Shown here piece by piece: positions 6,411 to 14,169 of a stretch of DNA of 31,045 nt (position 1 is the first letter of the stretch; each line of letters begins with the position of its first letter). The position numbers and the translations under genes are program-made. The stretch is from an uncultured bacterium (GTDB taxonomy: Bacteria; Hydrogenedentota; Hydrogenedentia; Hydrogenedentales; CAILVY01). The stretch is taken from assembly GCA_937951485.1 (NCBI GenBank), contig CALEDJ010000064.1:1-31045 (forward strand), in the 5' to 3' direction. Under the pieces are notes generated by a model that was not told the origin of the DNA, made no database searches, and saw nothing but the letters and a program-made list of their open reading frames with translations.

Positions 6411-6712
6411 TCAGACCGATTTGTTGTGTTGCATACGGGAATACAGTGTACCAGAAACCGTTTGCGGCATGATGTCGTTCCGTGTACCGTTGCGCGTTCG
6501 CACGCGGGTCGCGCCGGGACCCGCAGTAAGGACAGCCGCCTGGTGGCGGCAAACGCCGGAGACTGGCCCTGCGTTCCCAGGCCCCAGACAGGCGCGCGTT
6601 TCTGTTGGAGTGTGTAATCTATGCCTGCGTTTTCGCTTCGAGCAGTTACATCGTGGTTTTACGGTTGTCATGGCAGGATGGCGAAGATGCTGAAGGGGGA
6701 CATGAAAAGAGA

Positions 6713-6788
6713 GGGAGATGCCGGTAGGGGGCGACCGGCATCTCCGGTGAGGTGCGTTGCTCTGACGGGCATCAGAGCTTCGCAGAGG
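6713..6788. repeat. Structured 76-bp element, copy 1
   Basis: Two hairpins in tandem. Hairpin 1: a 12-bp perfect stem, 6714-6725 with 6734-6745, 8-base loop AGGGGGCG. Hairpin 2: TGCG (6753-6756) with CGCA (6781-6784), a TT/TT internal loop, then GCTCTGA (6759-6765) with TCAGAGC (6772-6778). It repeats 102 bases downstream with 73 of 76 positions identical. It is not a riboswitch class I recognise. It lies in the region upstream of the leftward protease gene. Confidence 0.8.
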
Positions 6789-6814
6789 TAGCAAGGGAAC
6801 GGGGTTTAAGAGGG

Positions 6815-6890
6815 GGGAGATGCCGGTAGGGGGCGACCGGCATCTCCGGTGAGGTGCGTTGCTCTAACGGGCGTTAGAGCTTCGCAGAGG
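6815..6890. repeat. Structured 76-bp element, copy 2, with compensatory changes
   Basis: Same architecture as copy 1: hairpin 1 is 6816-6827 with 6836-6847, and hairpin 2 is GCTCTAAC (6861-6868) with GTTAGAGC (6873-6880) around GGGC. All three differences from copy 1 fall in hairpin 2. The G-C pair 6764/6773 becomes A-T (6866/6875), and the C/A mismatch 6766/6771 becomes a C-G pair. A further hairpin, AGAGGAT-TAGGC-ATCCTCT (6886-6904), overlaps its right end and is absent after copy 1. Confidence 0.8.
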
Positions 6891-7140
6891 ATTAGGCATC
6901 CTCTCTTAGGGGAAACTCTTATCCGGAACGCCTTCGGCGTGTCAGCGCCGTTGCGGCCGACATGACCGCCCGGATGACCGCCCTGCCACCCTGCGCGCCG
7001 CGCATGGGTGTCGGCCCGGTCATCCCCCACATTCGCCGGACGGACGGCCTTTGCCGCCGTCTGCGCCGAATGGCGTTCGGTCCCGTAATGGATTCAATTC
7101 TTATGTCACGCTTTGCCCGCGCATTTTCATCGCGTTCACG

Positions 7141-7157
7141 TGTGGGATGTTCCCACA
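7141..7157. promoter_or_regulatory. 17-bp palindrome, operator-like
   Basis: TGTGGGA-TGT-TCCCACA is a perfect 7-3-7 inverted repeat, followed 3 bases later by an A6 run. It could bind a dimeric repressor or form a short hairpin. No gene start is close on either strand, so the function is open. Confidence 0.35.
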
Positions 7158-7320
7158 TCGAAAAAACGCACTGGCATCCGCGCGCCGAAATTCTTTAACT
7201 GTTCTCTGGCGTTTTGCAGGGTGCCTTTTGCGGCCCCCTGTATAACGGCCTCGCCTGTCTGTATCATGAAAGCGAACTGATTTCTCTTCGCTCCCGGCCG
7301 CAGGTCCTTTCCCTGCTCGC

Positions 7321-7640
7321 TTTGATGTTAGTTTAAACCAATCTGCGCACAAAAACAATACCCATTTTCAATAAAAAAAACGTCATGGAAAATTTTTTTA
7401 AGTGCCGTGTTTCCAATAATTTACAACGACTTTCGTTTTAGAATCGCCTCTTTTTTTTGTTTCAGCCATGAACTTTCCAGATTTTTTGGGCAAAAAATTT
7501 ATGTAATATTGATTACAAATGCATTGCTGCCGGATATTTGATAAAATGGAATTTATTTTTTTATTTGAATATGACATACTCGATGCGGGATCCGGCAAGT
7601 GCGAGAAAATACAGAGACATTGAGATGTTTTTTTCCCTGT
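7321..7640. other. AT-rich island with many A/T tracts
   Basis: Strongly AT-rich against a GC-rich background, with repeated runs of 6-8 A or T. It lies 3' of the leftward membrane-protein gene. A 66-codon minus-strand frame (7398-7598) is low-complexity and has no recognisable features. The base composition fits horizontally acquired or intrinsically curved DNA. Confidence 0.5.
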
Positions 7641-8269
7641 TATGGAGACGGTTGGTTGTTGTTTGGACTGGGTTTTCCGTTGCGGGTTTCGTTGTTCTCC
7701 GGCGGCGAAAGATTTCCGGGCGATGCGGTTTCAAGGCGTTTTTCCGCATCAGGCCGGAGGGACATCGGAGCGGTATCGCAAGCGCCGTGCTTGACGCTTG
7801 GAAAGAGAATCTGCATGTGTTGAAAGACCCGGTCGCCGCTCCAGGTGTAATAGCGGAGGATGATCAGGAACAGATAAAGCCAGGCGGCGGTCTTGGCGGC
7901 GGCGAAGAAGAGAAGGAGCCGTCGGTGTTCGCGGACGGGGATGGCGAGGTAGTCGCGGAGGTACTCCATGCGCATGGGCAGAAAGGCGAGCAGGGCGACG
8001 ATGCCCAGTTGTATCGCCTTTCCCTGTGCGGCAGGCGATTCGTCGCCGGCGTCGCGGCATCGCCAGTAGGTGAAGAAGGCGACATAGGCGGCGCATGCCA
8101 GGGAGACGGCGTAATGAGAATTGGTGATGGCGCGTTGGGTGACCACGCCGCCGAGATCGCGCAGCCAGTGGAAAGTCCACTCCGGAAAGTAGCCCGCAAG
8201 AAAAATGGGAATCCATGCGAGAAAAGCGAGGCCGCGCCACCAATTATTTGAACGCAACAAAGAGAACAA
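7640..8269 (-). CDS. Hypothetical multi-pass membrane protein
   Basis: 209 codons from a TTG start. About four hydrophobic segments are visible: residues about 10-27 (WWRGLAFLAWIPIFLAGYF), 49-70, 86-100 and 120-142 (LLLFFAAAKTAAWLYLFLIIL). They are separated by basic or polar loops, and a hydrophilic tail of about 55 residues is rich in Asn, Pro and Ser. GGAGGT at 8273-8278 supports translation starting here, though spacing to TTG 8269 is only 3 bases. Later in-frame TTGs at 8260 and 8257 are further away. I do not recognise the family. The opposite-strand frame over the same DNA is low-complexity acidic sequence, so the minus strand is the likelier coding strand. The next genes are over 700 bases away on either side. 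Confidence 0.6.
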   Translation of the reverse strand: MFSLLRSNNWWRGLAFLAWIPIFLAGYFPEWTFHWLRDLGGVVTQRAITNSHYAVSLACAAYVAFFTYWRCRDAGDESPAAQGKAIQLGIVALLAFLPMRMEYLRDYLAIPVREHRRLLLFFAAAKTAAWLYLFLIILRYYTWSGDRVFQHMQILFPSVKHGACDTAPMSLRPDAEKRLETASPGNLSPPENNETRNGKPSPNNNQPSP

Positions 8270-8987: not shown

Positions 8988-9068
8988 GTTGGTTTTTGGG
9001 GCGGGCGATGCATCGTGTACCATTGGGGGATTGCCCGAGGCGGGAAAGAATGCGCAGAAAGGCGTGTT

Positions 9069-10166
9069 GTGAAAATCCTGCATGTGTATAAAGATTTTGA
9101 TCCGCCGGTGCGCGGCGGAATGGAGCGGCACATCGCGCTGATGTGCCGTTTTCAGCGGCAGTGGGCGGAGGTGGAGGCGCTGATGTGCAGCCGAAGGCTG
9201 CGCACGCGGCGGGTCGTGCGCGACGGGACGCCGGTCACGGAGGTGGGGGAGTGGGGGCGATTCCAGAGCGCGCCGGTCGCGCCGATGTTCCCGTGGCATT
9301 TGCGGCGGATGCGCGCGGATGTGGTGGTGATTCACAGCCCGAATCCGACGGCGGAGGTATCATGTCTGCTGGCGCGCCCGCGCGGGCGGGTGGTGGTTCG
9401 CTACCACAGCGATGTAGTGCGCCAGGCCGCCGCCATGCGGCTTTACAAGCCGCTGCTGATGCGGTTTCTCCGCGAATCTGCTATCATTCTCCCCACTTCG
9501 GAACCCTACTTGGACACGTCGCCGTATCTGGCCGCGGTGCGGGACAAGTGCCGGGTGGTGCCGCTGGGCATTGTGGCGGAGATGTTCGCGCATCCTGACG
9601 CGGCGCGCGTGGCCGCGCTGCGCACGGCCTACGGCGGCGATTTTGTGTTGTTTTCGGGCATGCACCGGTATTACAAGGGGCTGCCCTGGCTGGTGCGGGC
9701 GGCGGGCGCCATCCGCGCCAAGGTGGTGATCGCGGGTGACGGGCCGGAACGGTCCGCGTGCATGGCGCTGGCAAAGGAACTTGGGGTGGATATCGCATTC
9801 CCCGGCAGTCTGGAACACGATGATCTGGTCGCGCATCTGCATGCGTGCGCCGTGTTCGCATTTCCATCGGTGGCGCGCAGCGAAGCCTTCGGCATCTCGA
9901 TTCTGGAAGCCCACGCCTGCGGGAAGCCGGTGGTGGCCACGCGCCTGGGCACGGGCGTGGAGTTCGCCAACCTGGACGGGGTGACGGGGCTGAACGTGCC
10001 GCCCCAGGACGCGCAGGCGCTTGCGGAAGCGATCAACGCACTGCTGGCCGACCCGGAACGCGCCCGGGCGATGGGCGTGCGCGCCCGGGAACGGGTCTTG
10101 CGTGATTTTGACGCCGAGGCGGTGGCGCGTATGGAATTCGATATTTACCAGGAAATTGCCGGATGA
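9069..10166 (+). CDS. Glycosyltransferase family 4 protein
   Basis: 365 residues from GTG 9069, which gives the usual beginning KILHVYKDFDPPVRGGMERH with the Gly-Gly loop of GT-B enzymes. GAAAGG lies just upstream, and an upstream GTG at 9015 would add 18 atypical residues. The C-terminal half has the nucleotide-sugar site: MHRYYKGLPWLV, IAGDGPE, and the E-x7-E motif SEAFGISILEAHACGKPVVA (Glu272 and Glu280). The enzyme should transfer a sugar from a nucleotide-activated donor to a lipid-linked or growing glycan on the cytoplasmic side. Its stop overlaps the start of the WecA-like gene (ATGA type), so the two are translationally coupled. Donor and acceptor cannot be read from the sequence. Confidence 0.9.
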   Translation: MKILHVYKDFDPPVRGGMERHIALMCRFQRQWAEVEALMCSRRLRTRRVVRDGTPVTEVGEWGRFQSAPVAPMFPWHLRRMRADVVVIHSPNPTAEVSCLLARPRGRVVVRYHSDVVRQAAAMRLYKPLLMRFLRESAIILPTSEPYLDTSPYLAAVRDKCRVVPLGIVAEMFAHPDAARVAALRTAYGGDFVLFSGMHRYYKGLPWLVRAAGAIRAKVVIAGDGPERSACMALAKELGVDIAFPGSLEHDDLVAHLHACAVFAFPSVARSEAFGISILEAHACGKPVVATRLGTGVEFANLDGVTGLNVPPQDAQALAEAINALLADPERARAMGVRARERVLRDFDAEAVARMEFDIYQEIAG

Positions 10167-11278
10167 TGCGCTGGTTCATACAACACCATTATTATCTTTA
10201 TCTCTACACGCTGTCGGCGTCGTTCCTGCTGGCGCTGGGGTTGACTTGGCTGATGCGGCGCCTGGCGCTGCGCTGGGGCTTCCTGGACCATCCGGGCGAT
10301 CGCAAGATCCACCATTCTCCCATTCCGCTCATGGGCGGCGTGGCCATCGTTGCCACCTTCTACATTATGGTCTTCGGCCACATGGTCCTGTTCTGGGTGA
10401 TGGATCAATACGGTCCGGAGTGGATCGAGCGGAACCTGTCGTCGCATTTTGGCGCAAACGGCGGATTGAAACTCGCCGGAGTACTCCTGGGCGGACTCAT
10501 GATCTTTGCGTTGGGGGTGGTGGACGACCTGAAGGTGCTGAGGCCGTGGACCAAACTCCTGGGGCAGATCGCGTCGGCGGCGGTATTGGTGCTTGCGGGC
10601 AACCGCATCGAGGTGTTCGTTTTGTCAAACTGGTGGCTGTCGGTCTTCGCCACGATTTTCTGGGTGGTGCTGATCGTCAATTCGATGAATTTTCTGGACA
10701 ACATGGACGGGTTGTGCGGCGGCGTGTCCATCATTGCGGCCTATTCCTTCTTCTTGTGCCTGCAACCGCACGAAGACCAACTGGCCCGTTTCCTGTTGAT
10801 GATCTTCGCGGGGTCCGTGGCGGGTTTCCTGTATTTCAACCTCAGTCCCGCGCGCATTTTCATGGGCGATGCCGGGGCAATGTTCAACGGGTATTTCCTG
10901 GCGACGGTGGCGGTGCTGGGCACCTTCCACATGGAAACGACGCCGTCGCGCATTGCGATCGCCGCGCCGCTGCTGGCGCTGAGCGTGCCGCTTTTTGACA
11001 CCATCAGCGTGGTCTATCTCCGGATACGCAGCGGCCAGAACATCATGCTCGGCGACAAGCGGCATTTTTCGCACCGGCTGGTGGATCTCGGCATGTCCCC
11101 GCATCAGGCGGTCGCATTTATCTTCCTCGTGGCGGGCGTGGCCGGGCTGGGAGGCGCACTGCTGCCGCTGATGGACCTCGGCGGCACGCTGATCATCCTG
11201 GCGCAGACCTGCGGACTGTTCCTGCTCATCGTGCTGCTCATGAACGCCAAGCGGCGCAACGGCGGGATCAACTCATGA
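10163..11278 (+). CDS. WecA/MraY-type polyprenyl-phosphate sugar-1-phosphate transferase
   Basis: 371 residues, about 10-11 membrane helices. It transfers a HexNAc-1-phosphate or similar unit from a UDP-sugar to undecaprenyl phosphate and so starts a lipid-linked glycan. Family motifs are all present: HPGDRKIHHSPIPLMGG near the N-terminus, the Asp pair in GVVDDLK (121-122), NSMNFLDNMDG (Asn176, Asp179, Asp182), FMGDAGAMFNGY (Asp236) and the substrate-loop HFSHR (301-305). The His-rich loop and length fit the WecA/TagO branch better than MraY. The start overlaps the GT4 stop (ATG 10163, with 10166 as alternative), and its own stop overlaps the next start by 4 bases, so the three genes form one translation-coupled unit. 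Confidence 0.92.
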   Translation: MMRWFIQHHYYLYLYTLSASFLLALGLTWLMRRLALRWGFLDHPGDRKIHHSPIPLMGGVAIVATFYIMVFGHMVLFWVMDQYGPEWIERNLSSHFGANGGLKLAGVLLGGLMIFALGVVDDLKVLRPWTKLLGQIASAAVLVLAGNRIEVFVLSNWWLSVFATIFWVVLIVNSMNFLDNMDGLCGGVSIIAAYSFFLCLQPHEDQLARFLLMIFAGSVAGFLYFNLSPARIFMGDAGAMFNGYFLATVAVLGTFHMETTPSRIAIAAPLLALSVPLFDTISVVYLRIRSGQNIMLGDKRHFSHRLVDLGMSPHQAVAFIFLVAGVAGLGGALLPLMDLGGTLIILAQTCGLFLLIVLLMNAKRRNGGINS

Positions 11279-14169
11279 AGAGCGGGAAAAAGCGCGGCGG
11301 CAACGCCATCGGCAAGCGCGGCGAAGCGGCCCCGACAGTGCTCTCCAAACCGGTCCCGGATTCTTGCGCTTCGGGGTGGTGGCCTGAAGAGTTCTGCCGT
11401 CCGCGGACGGCATGGATGCTCGCAGGGGCGATCCTCGCGTGGGGGGTGTTGCTGTTCGGCCTTGCGGCCATGGACCGGCTGCTGTGGCTGAAGATCATTA
11501 TCGGCTGGCTGGTGGGGTTGTGGCGGCCCGAAGTGGTGAACCCCTATCCGTGGGATCTGGCGGGCGTGTGGTGGTGCCTGGGAACCACGATTCTGGCGGG
11601 GTTGGTGCATCCTGCGGTGGGGCTTGCCGTGCTGGGTTTTCTGCGGCCCTGGCTGGATGGTTACACCTATCCCCGCGACAACGTGTATTTCCTGTGGGCG
11701 GCGGGGGTCTTGTTTGCGTTCTGGAGTGCGCGCGTCATGCTTCGGGGCGAGCGCATCCGTTTCAAGACCCCGCTGTCGCTGCTGGGGGCCTTTCTTGTGG
11801 TGGCCGCCGTAAGCAGCGCGGCCAGCATCCAGTTTGACCGCACCTACCGCGAGTTGTTGAACTGGTGCGGGTACTTTGCCCTGTTTGCGTTGGCCGCGAA
11901 TACGCTGCGTTCCCGGCGGGTTTCCAGTTTTCTGCTCATTGCGCTGGCCGTGTCCATGGCCGCCGAAACCGTCTTCAGCCTGCTCCATTTCCACTATCTG
12001 TTGCCGTATCTGCGTAAAATGGTGCAGCATCCACAGGTATTGCGCTACTTCTTCGACACCGACGTCATGACTCCGGAACTGGCCCGGCGCTTCAACGTCA
12101 ACCGCGCGTTCGGCTCCATGCTTTTTCCCAATGCGCTGGCGGCTTTCCTGATCCTGGGGTTGCCATACCACACAGCAGCGGCGGTCACGGAGTGGCGGCG
12201 GGTGAAGAGCCTGTGGCAACCGGCGGGCGACCCGGAAAAAGCCGCCGCGCGGCGCTATCGCGCGCTGGCCATCGGCGCCATCGTGTGGTTCGTGGTGTTT
12301 CTGGCGTTCTATGCCGGCGGCCAATTCGCCGCCATGTACCAATATGAAGATGCGTCGTTGTCGAGCGTGATTATCGGCGTGGGGATCGCTGCGGCGATTG
12401 TGGCGCTGTTGCCCGCCGTGTTTTTCTTCTGGGTGGCCGACGGCTATGGGGCTGCGGTGTCCGGGCGGTGCCTGCTCGCCGCCGGATTGAGCCTGCTGAT
12501 CGCGCTGCAATGCCGGGCATTGTGGCTGACTTATTCCCGGGGGGGCATGCTTGCGCTGATCGCGGGCGCAGGGGCGGCGCTGTTCCTGTATTGGGGCCGC
12601 TCGTTGCCGTTTTCAGGCCGATGGCTTGCCAGGACCGCTGTCCCGATCCTGATTGGCCTCGCGGCGGCAAGCATGCTGCTGGGAAACGCCAATGCAATCG
12701 AAGCGGCCGATCCGCCCGCCGCTGCTGACGCGGCCTCCGGCCCCAGCGTCGAGGTGACCGAAGAGGGGCTTCAAGTGACGTTGCAGGACCTGGCCGACCC
12801 GGCCACCATGGCGTTGCGGCTCACCTACTGGCGCGTCGGATGGAACATGTTCCTGAACCATTGCTGGACGGGCGTGGGTCTGAAGAATTTCGGCATCGCC
12901 TATCCCAGTTATCAGTACCTTGGCGCCGGCGAGGTGCGCGAAGCCCACAACAGTTTCCTGCAGGTCTTCTGTGAAACGGGTGTGGCGGGCGGCCTGCTGA
13001 TGCTGGCGTTCTGGGCGTGGGTGGCGCTGTGGGGGGCGGGCCGCGTATTGGGGCAGGCAGAGCGCAGTGATCGGCTGATTCTCGCCGGATTGCTCGGCGG
13101 GGTGCTCGCATTCCTGGCGCATTCGGCCATAGACATCAACTTTTCCCATCCCTCGCTGATGATGTTTGTCATGATGTACGCGGGAATTTTCTGCGCCCGC
13201 GCCGAGCAGGCCCCGGTGGCGCCGGTCCCGGAGACAGCCGACAGCGACCGGCATTTGCCCAGTCAAATCGCCGGGATGGCCTTCCTGCTGGGGATGGCCC
13301 TGTTGCTGGGGTTGAGCGTGCGGGTCTTTTCCCAGGACCTTGCGCTGACGCGCGTCTCGTTCATCAATCTCGGCAATCAGGATGAACTGATGCGCCGCTA
13401 TCATGCCGGACGCTTTTTCACGGAAGAGGTCCAATACAACGCGTGGGACCGCAAACAGGGCAAGGAACTGCCTGATCCGCGCATCGGATTCCACACCGCC
13501 TACGCATTCATCGGCAATGTGGAACTGATCCACCGCTTCGGCCCTGTGATCGCCCCGATGCCCGACCGTGCGCGCGGCGCGCGGCGCGTGCAGCCCGGCG
13601 AACCGGTCCCCCCCAATGCCGTTTTGGTGGTCACCTATCCTGAGCGCGCCGTTTGGCGGGGATTTCAGGCGGCGTACCGCTGGATTGATGAATTGGAGAG
13701 TTATGATGCGCGTTTTCCTTACGACCCCGATTTGGCGTTGCATCTCTCGCGCTGGTGTGAACTGATGGTGACGGTGTGTCATGGGGACGAATTGAAGGAG
13801 AAACGGCGGGAATATATGGACCGCCTGATGTACTGGGCGCAGACCGCTGTCCGGCGCAGTCCCCTGCATGCCGATGTCTATATGAATTACGGCGGCGCGC
13901 TGTGGACCTACGCGTACTTCGCCCCGGGACCGGACAAGGCCGAATGCTATCGGCTTGCCATCGAACAGTTCCGCCGTGCGGCGGAACTGACCCCCACCCA
14001 GGTGCTCCCGCTCATGTATCAGGCCGATGCCTGCCGGAAACTCGCCGACGCCTACCGGGACATCGGCGACGACGCCAACGCCGACCGCTATCTGCAGGAG
14101 GCCGGGGCGGTGGATGCGCAGGTGGAGGCATTGCGCCGGGCGCGGCAGGCGCTGGGGCTTTGGGGATGA
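11275..14169 (+). CDS. O-antigen ligase/polymerase-like membrane protein with large C-terminal soluble domain
   Basis: 964 residues. The first about 650 residues hold roughly a dozen hydrophobic helices and the Wzy_C/O-antigen ligase signature around EAHNSFLQVFCETGVAGG (His558), preceded by the loop GVGLKNFGIAYPSYQYL. Members either ligate the finished glycan to a lipid or protein acceptor or polymerise repeat units at the outer face of the inner membrane. Residues about 680-964 are soluble. The tail (about 845-960) has alternating helices resembling TPR repeats (PLHADVYMNYGGALWTYAYF, AIEQFRRAAELTPTQVLPLM), often seen in this family and likely periplasmic. Start ATG 11275 overlaps the previous stop. 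Ligase and polymerase cannot be told apart from sequence alone. Confidence 0.82.
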   Translation: MKSGKKRGGNAIGKRGEAAPTVLSKPVPDSCASGWWPEEFCRPRTAWMLAGAILAWGVLLFGLAAMDRLLWLKIIIGWLVGLWRPEVVNPYPWDLAGVWWCLGTTILAGLVHPAVGLAVLGFLRPWLDGYTYPRDNVYFLWAAGVLFAFWSARVMLRGERIRFKTPLSLLGAFLVVAAVSSAASIQFDRTYRELLNWCGYFALFALAANTLRSRRVSSFLLIALAVSMAAETVFSLLHFHYLLPYLRKMVQHPQVLRYFFDTDVMTPELARRFNVNRAFGSMLFPNALAAFLILGLPYHTAAAVTEWRRVKSLWQPAGDPEKAAARRYRALAIGAIVWFVVFLAFYAGGQFAAMYQYEDASLSSVIIGVGIAAAIVALLPAVFFFWVADGYGAAVSGRCLLAAGLSLLIALQCRALWLTYSRGGMLALIAGAGAALFLYWGRSLPFSGRWLARTAVPILIGLAAASMLLGNANAIEAADPPAAADAASGPSVEVTEEGLQVTLQDLADPATMALRLTYWRVGWNMFLNHCWTGVGLKNFGIAYPSYQYLGAGEVREAHNSFLQVFCETGVAGGLLMLAFWAWVALWGAGRVLGQAERSDRLILAGLLGGVLAFLAHSAIDINFSHPSLMMFVMMYAGIFCARAEQAPVAPVPETADSDRHLPSQIAGMAFLLGMALLLGLSVRVFSQDLALTRVSFINLGNQDELMRRYHAGRFFTEEVQYNAWDRKQGKELPDPRIGFHTAYAFIGNVELIHRFGPVIAPMPDRARGARRVQPGEPVPPNAVLVVTYPERAVWRGFQAAYRWIDELESYDARFPYDPDLALHLSRWCELMVTVCHGDELKEKRREYMDRLMYWAQTAVRRSPLHADVYMNYGGALWTYAYFAPGPDKAECYRLAIEQFRRAAELTPTQVLPLMYQADACRKLADAYRDIGDDANADRYLQEAGAVDAQVEALRRARQALGLWG

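Follow-up and report, generated by a model that had tools for sequence, protein, structure and literature searches.

The cuckoo/CcsR RNAs of Alphaproteobacteria (CIN1 locus) carry CUCCUCCC as the anti-Shine-Dalgarno (anti-SD) motif of their loops. The CcsR small RNAs are arranged in tandem downstream of a protein gene and are ended by a terminator (PMC10253847), and CcsR1-4/cuckoo (ar14) share a common promoter and combine anti-SD motifs in the loops with hypervariable stems (PMC10253847, PMC7143759). In LhrC the motif is present in both loops and in the intervening stretch (PMC4132741). In CsrB and RsmZ the hairpins are repeated and share a conserved loop motif that contains GGA. Here we describe a tandem array of hairpin units in the window, i.e. 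the whole stretch of 31,045 nt that was analyzed, and in related genomes, where it is found across the order as an RNA locus with predicted promoters and terminators.

The array resembles LhrC1-5 of Listeria monocytogenes in that a C-rich motif occupies both loops and the linker of the unit. Each LhrC copy has its own promoter and binds Hfq, whereas the units of the array are mostly joined in a common transcript. A search of 68 Hydrogenedentota genomes detected Hfq in none of them, while the control search recovers it in five known genomes; a sequence relation between LhrC and the array was not found. With cuckoo/CcsR the array has in common the tandem units behind a protein gene, the terminal terminator and a CU-rich anti-SD motif, here a CCCCCU loop plus the linker ACCUCACC. 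The upstream gene of CcsR, however, is of the DUF1127 type, whereas that of the array encodes a cohesin-domain protein or a 209-aa protein, or is missing; the loop motif is a C-run instead of CUCCUCCC, and no homology to an Rfam sRNA family was found. Unlike CsrB and RsmZ, the array has no GGA at its unpaired positions, and it occurs in genomes without detectable CsrA. A function as CsrA sponge was rejected on the basis of these GGA-free loops (G makes up 6.6% of the unpaired bases) and of array-carrying genomes of family f10 without detectable csrA (f1 to f11 are anonymous family labels from the genome search).

The window contains two copies of 76 bp at 6713-6788 and 6815-6890, spaced 102 bp and identical at 73 of 76 positions; recomputation of the coordinates agrees with the first-pass annotation, and no further copies are present in the 4.55-Mb assembly. 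All three differences lie in hairpin 2 (hp2), as had been claimed, and one double change converts a G-C into an A-T pair. The third difference had been described as a mismatch becoming a C-G pair, which is true for the plus strand (C/A to C-G), whereas on the minus strand, the RNA strand, it is a change from U-G to C-G, so that all pairs remain intact in both copies. On either strand the fold is far more stable than those of shuffled sequences, with z-scores of -5.2 and -6.0 for the plus and -6.7 and -7.7 for the minus strand.

All features of the window locus are given for the minus strand. The putative promoter (TTGTTT, 17 nt, TAAACT; 7330-7358) was assigned by eye in analogy to relatives; it scores under the threshold of the automatic scan and is weak for the window itself. 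The predicted non-coding leader (6905-7322), in which a convincing open frame was not found on the minus strand, includes a conserved box AATTGAATC at 7091-7099, the TTGA(A/C)TC motif of which recurs in standalone relatives. Hairpin 3 (6886-6904; stem AGAGGAU/AUCCUCU, loop GCCUA) follows UUUCCCCU on the RNA strand. This third hairpin, already noticed beside the 6815-6890 copy in the first-pass annotation, is real; many relatives have it too, next to the unit that comes first in RNA order, and it shows a compensatory change from U-A to C-G in L095 and L097. Unit 1 in RNA order (6815-6890, the second copy in plus-strand order) is supported by covariation and by a covariance model match of 103.8 bits (E 5.3e-18). 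It comprises hp2 at 6861-6868/6873-6880 with an outer helix at 6855-6858/6883-6886, the linker CCUCACC at 6848-6854, and hairpin 1 (hp1) at 6816-6827/6836-6847 with the loop CGCCCCCU at 6828-6835. Unit 2 (6713-6788, the first copy in plus-strand order) matches with 101.6 bits (E 1.5e-17) a model built from an alignment to which it belongs itself; its hp2 is located at 6759-6766/6771-6778, its linker at 6746-6752 and its hp1 at 6714-6725/6734-6745 with the loop at 6726-6733. According to the terminator scan, hp1 of this last unit followed by CUCUCUUUUC forms an end resembling an intrinsic terminator (6704-6745). Over the extracted unit, the sequence at 6815-6890 does not differ from that at 8031-8111 of L083, from another genus (G001).

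Covariation was measured by pair counts, with shuffles and slid partners as controls. Among 40 aligned homologous units, 15 of the 24 stem pairs have changed on both sides in a compensatory manner, scored on a structure drawn from the window unit, which somewhat favors this structure. Compensated cells number 81, compared to 22.7 in shuffles, and 93% of the cells are paired versus 32-53% with slid partners; kinship among the sequences inflates cell counts, but the slid controls preserve this relatedness and nevertheless drop to the lower values. Read on the minus strand of the window, the stem cells include 48 G-U and 13 A-C combinations, eight of the latter from a single outer pair, which indicates an RNA read leftward. 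A structured RNA encoded on the minus strand is thus well supported by the covarying sequences. The first-pass annotation had proposed selection on base pairing either in RNA or as a DNA hairpin; the selection on pairing and the RNA are borne out by the 15 doubly changed pairs, while the DNA hairpin is not, as G-U is tolerated on one strand only. Homologs whose stems vary without keeping the pairing, which had been named as counter-evidence, were looked for and not encountered.

Standalone loci in relatives have leaders of 133-371 nt. The 9/12 scan gives a plausible sigma-70-like promoter in 10 of 16 of these loci, others being read by eye, and the promoters, e.g. TTGCAT-17-TATACT and TTGACA-18-TATATT, are found at the same relative place and are stronger than that of the window. 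In 14 of the 16 loci, TTGA(A/C)TC is present in the roughly 310 nt before the array, at an estimated chance of about 4% per locus. Of the 37 loci that could be judged, 28 have a U-tract or terminator behind the last unit; relatives' arrays end with hp1 and 6-9 U or with a separate terminator, and both the promoter and the U-tract of the window are weaker than those of the relatives. As far as can be judged from these signals, an array without host gene mostly has its own promoter and a leader with the TTGAATC box, and most arrays appear to end at an intrinsic terminator.

The array was detected in 40 of 68 Hydrogenedentota genomes (model R1, E <= 0.01), usually as one locus per genome with one to seven tandem units, and a DNA search of 60 relatives revealed arrays in many of them. 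Nearly all genomes of families f1, f2, f3 and f7-f11 carry it, whereas those of f4 and f5 are mostly devoid of it. Most of the relatives were assembled from metagenomes, and copy numbers are minimum values where arrays reach contig ends, as in several assemblies. A pattern scan of the GTDB r220 contigs yielded 31 stretches, 28 of them titled Hydrogenedentes, Hydrogenedentota or Hydrogenedens; L036 ('uncultured bacterium') and L040 (Nitrospiraceae OTbin.67) belong to the order of the window according to the genome search. The last stretch, from Cyanobium, is a chance match (14.7 bits, E 0.15 by covariance model) and the only one outside the phylum in this GTDB-wide scan; the plasmids, phages and viral contigs searched gave no match. 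Rfam delivered chance matches only at gathering and relaxed thresholds, among them ar15 in L079 with 18.3 bits compared to a gathering score of 40, in line with the earlier remark that no known class could be recognized. The sequences thus point to a previously unlisted RNA gene, found only in the little-studied phylum Hydrogenedentota.

The unpaired positions of the units consist of 59% C and 6.6% G, the paired positions of 32% C and 33% G. The C-rich unpaired positions are both loops and the linker, and loop and linker are mostly unpaired in the fold of the window transcript. Columns without variation in the unit alignment are found in the hp1 loop, in the linker and in parts of the stems; the hp1 loop keeps CCCCCU throughout and the linker hardly changes, while the stems vary. 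CACCUC in the linker is part of the anti-SD sequence, which has its usual form in the window genome. Two unit types are distinguished (L004-L006, L014, L016 and L018 versus others), type A having GCCC or GCCA instead of CCCC in the hp2 loop. The first unit in RNA order carries GCC(A/C) there, often together with hairpin 3, and later units carry CCCC. Later units are nearly identical within a genome, which suggests concerted evolution. Single-unit paralogous second loci exist in G055 (L204, 565-657) and G047 (L205, 528-612). Their hp1 loops are long and even richer in C and U, and each locus has a terminator hairpin of its own.

Sequence evidence strongly supports the prediction that the two-unit array is transcribed from the minus strand and terminated by its last hairpin. 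Each unit would present single-stranded C-rich segments, namely the hp2 loop, the linker and the hp1 loop, on covarying stems. By analogy to the layout of the multicopy anti-SD sRNAs LhrC and CcsR/cuckoo, an mRNA-pairing role is inferred: the array would act in trans, its C-rich segments pairing with G-rich sites near the Shine-Dalgarno region of its mRNA targets to block translation, unit repetition would increase the binding sites per transcript, and pairing would proceed without Hfq. We assign a probability of roughly 0.45 to this tentative reading as a trans-acting, multi-site sRNA that pairs by anti-SD motifs. GGGGG, the complement of the hp1 loop, was found four times at the start codons of 476 genes of the window genome and six times in the control stretch, and any targets must therefore be few. 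AGGAG occurred 37 versus three times before the same starts, which were taken as the first ATG or GTG, blurring the test. Global anti-SD tuning is not supported, as GGGGG before starts is no more frequent than in the control.

The invariant loop and linker sequence, repeated one to seven times, would also suit an RNA that, like CsrB/RsmZ with CsrA, titrates or assembles an RNA-binding protein, and the large closed structure of the f7 form is suggestive of a ribonucleoprotein. CsrA itself, however, is excluded as general partner by the GGA-free loops and the array-carrying f10 genomes without csrA, and we consider protein binding unlikely, though a serious competitor. Family f10 has the largest arrays; CsrA was not detected in its array-carrying genomes, while G022, the one f10 genome without array, has CsrA. 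A phylum-specific, Hfq-free RNA regulator strengthened by unit duplication, possibly replacing CsrA-type control in f10, would be a speculative extension of low probability.

Four f7 loci (L076, L077, L078, L079) possess a leader of some 220 nt that is strongly conserved; it is closed by GGUAGCAGAGCUG/CAGCUCUGCUACC and has UGUCCUCCCAUU and UUUACCCCGG as hairpin loops. The leader has no Rfam match; its fold is a closed helix that carries C-loop hairpins of its own, and 10 of 71 leader and unit pairs are doubly changed in the four sequences. Together with the TTGAATC box common to several families, it would fit units that form the terminal domain of a larger structural RNA with a non-regulatory role; yet leaders outside f7 show no obvious common fold and the cohesin-gene loci have a coding region where the leader would be, which makes this explanation improbable.

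The stop codon of a gene for a cohesin-domain membrane protein precedes the first unit by 3-78 nt in about 20 genomes, approximately half. The product has a signal-like N-terminus, a cohesin domain (PF00963, E 2.3e-7, 31.5 bits) and a C-terminal hydrophobic anchor. This arrangement, seen in at least 20 genomes, could point to a 3' UTR element acting in cis to protect or process the mRNA for this protein, but standalone arrays with their own promoters exist in f1, in f7 and in some of f10, the window among them, and the cohesin gene is kept without array in many f5 genomes, so that gene and array are separable; the 3' UTR reading is accordingly hardly probable. No divergent array was seen by eye downstream of the inspected f5 cohesin genes. 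No remnant of the cohesin gene was found in the window, and no match above threshold in the assembly. The upstream same-strand neighbor of the window array encodes a 209-aa putative membrane protein (7640-8269, minus strand) without Pfam match above cut-off, homologs of which precede the array in 18 genomes. An apparent polysaccharide cluster with two glycosyltransferase-family proteins and a Wzy_C (O-antigen ligase) protein is located at 9015-14169. Downstream of the array the genes vary from one genome to another and are often in convergent orientation, which argues against a leader or riboswitch of the protease gene; the distance of 300-480 bases to this leftward ORF (start 6410) had been stated correctly, but by sequence comparison the gene is incidental. 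No conserved downstream gene without intervening terminator was found, and the riboswitch or leader class was rejected.

A DNA-level element (REP/MITE, transposon end, recombination site or CRISPR-like array) is suggested by the palindromic, tandem units with short spacers but is very improbable, since nearly all genomes have one locus instead of many dispersed copies, G-U is tolerated on one strand only, spacers recur within a genome, the neighbors common to genomes are the cohesin-domain and membrane protein genes, and a search for the transposon end or REP family that the first-pass annotation had named as a possible contrary explanation found neither.

Searches of the open-access literature gave nothing relevant on non-coding RNA in Hydrogenedentota. 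A conserved and countable tandem array would be a tractable entry to RNA regulation in this phylum, in which Hfq appears to be absent, and the natural copy-number series of one to seven units would allow testing of dose dependence. If the anti-SD-pairing mechanism is true, multicopy sRNAs with C-rich loops arose independently at least once more.
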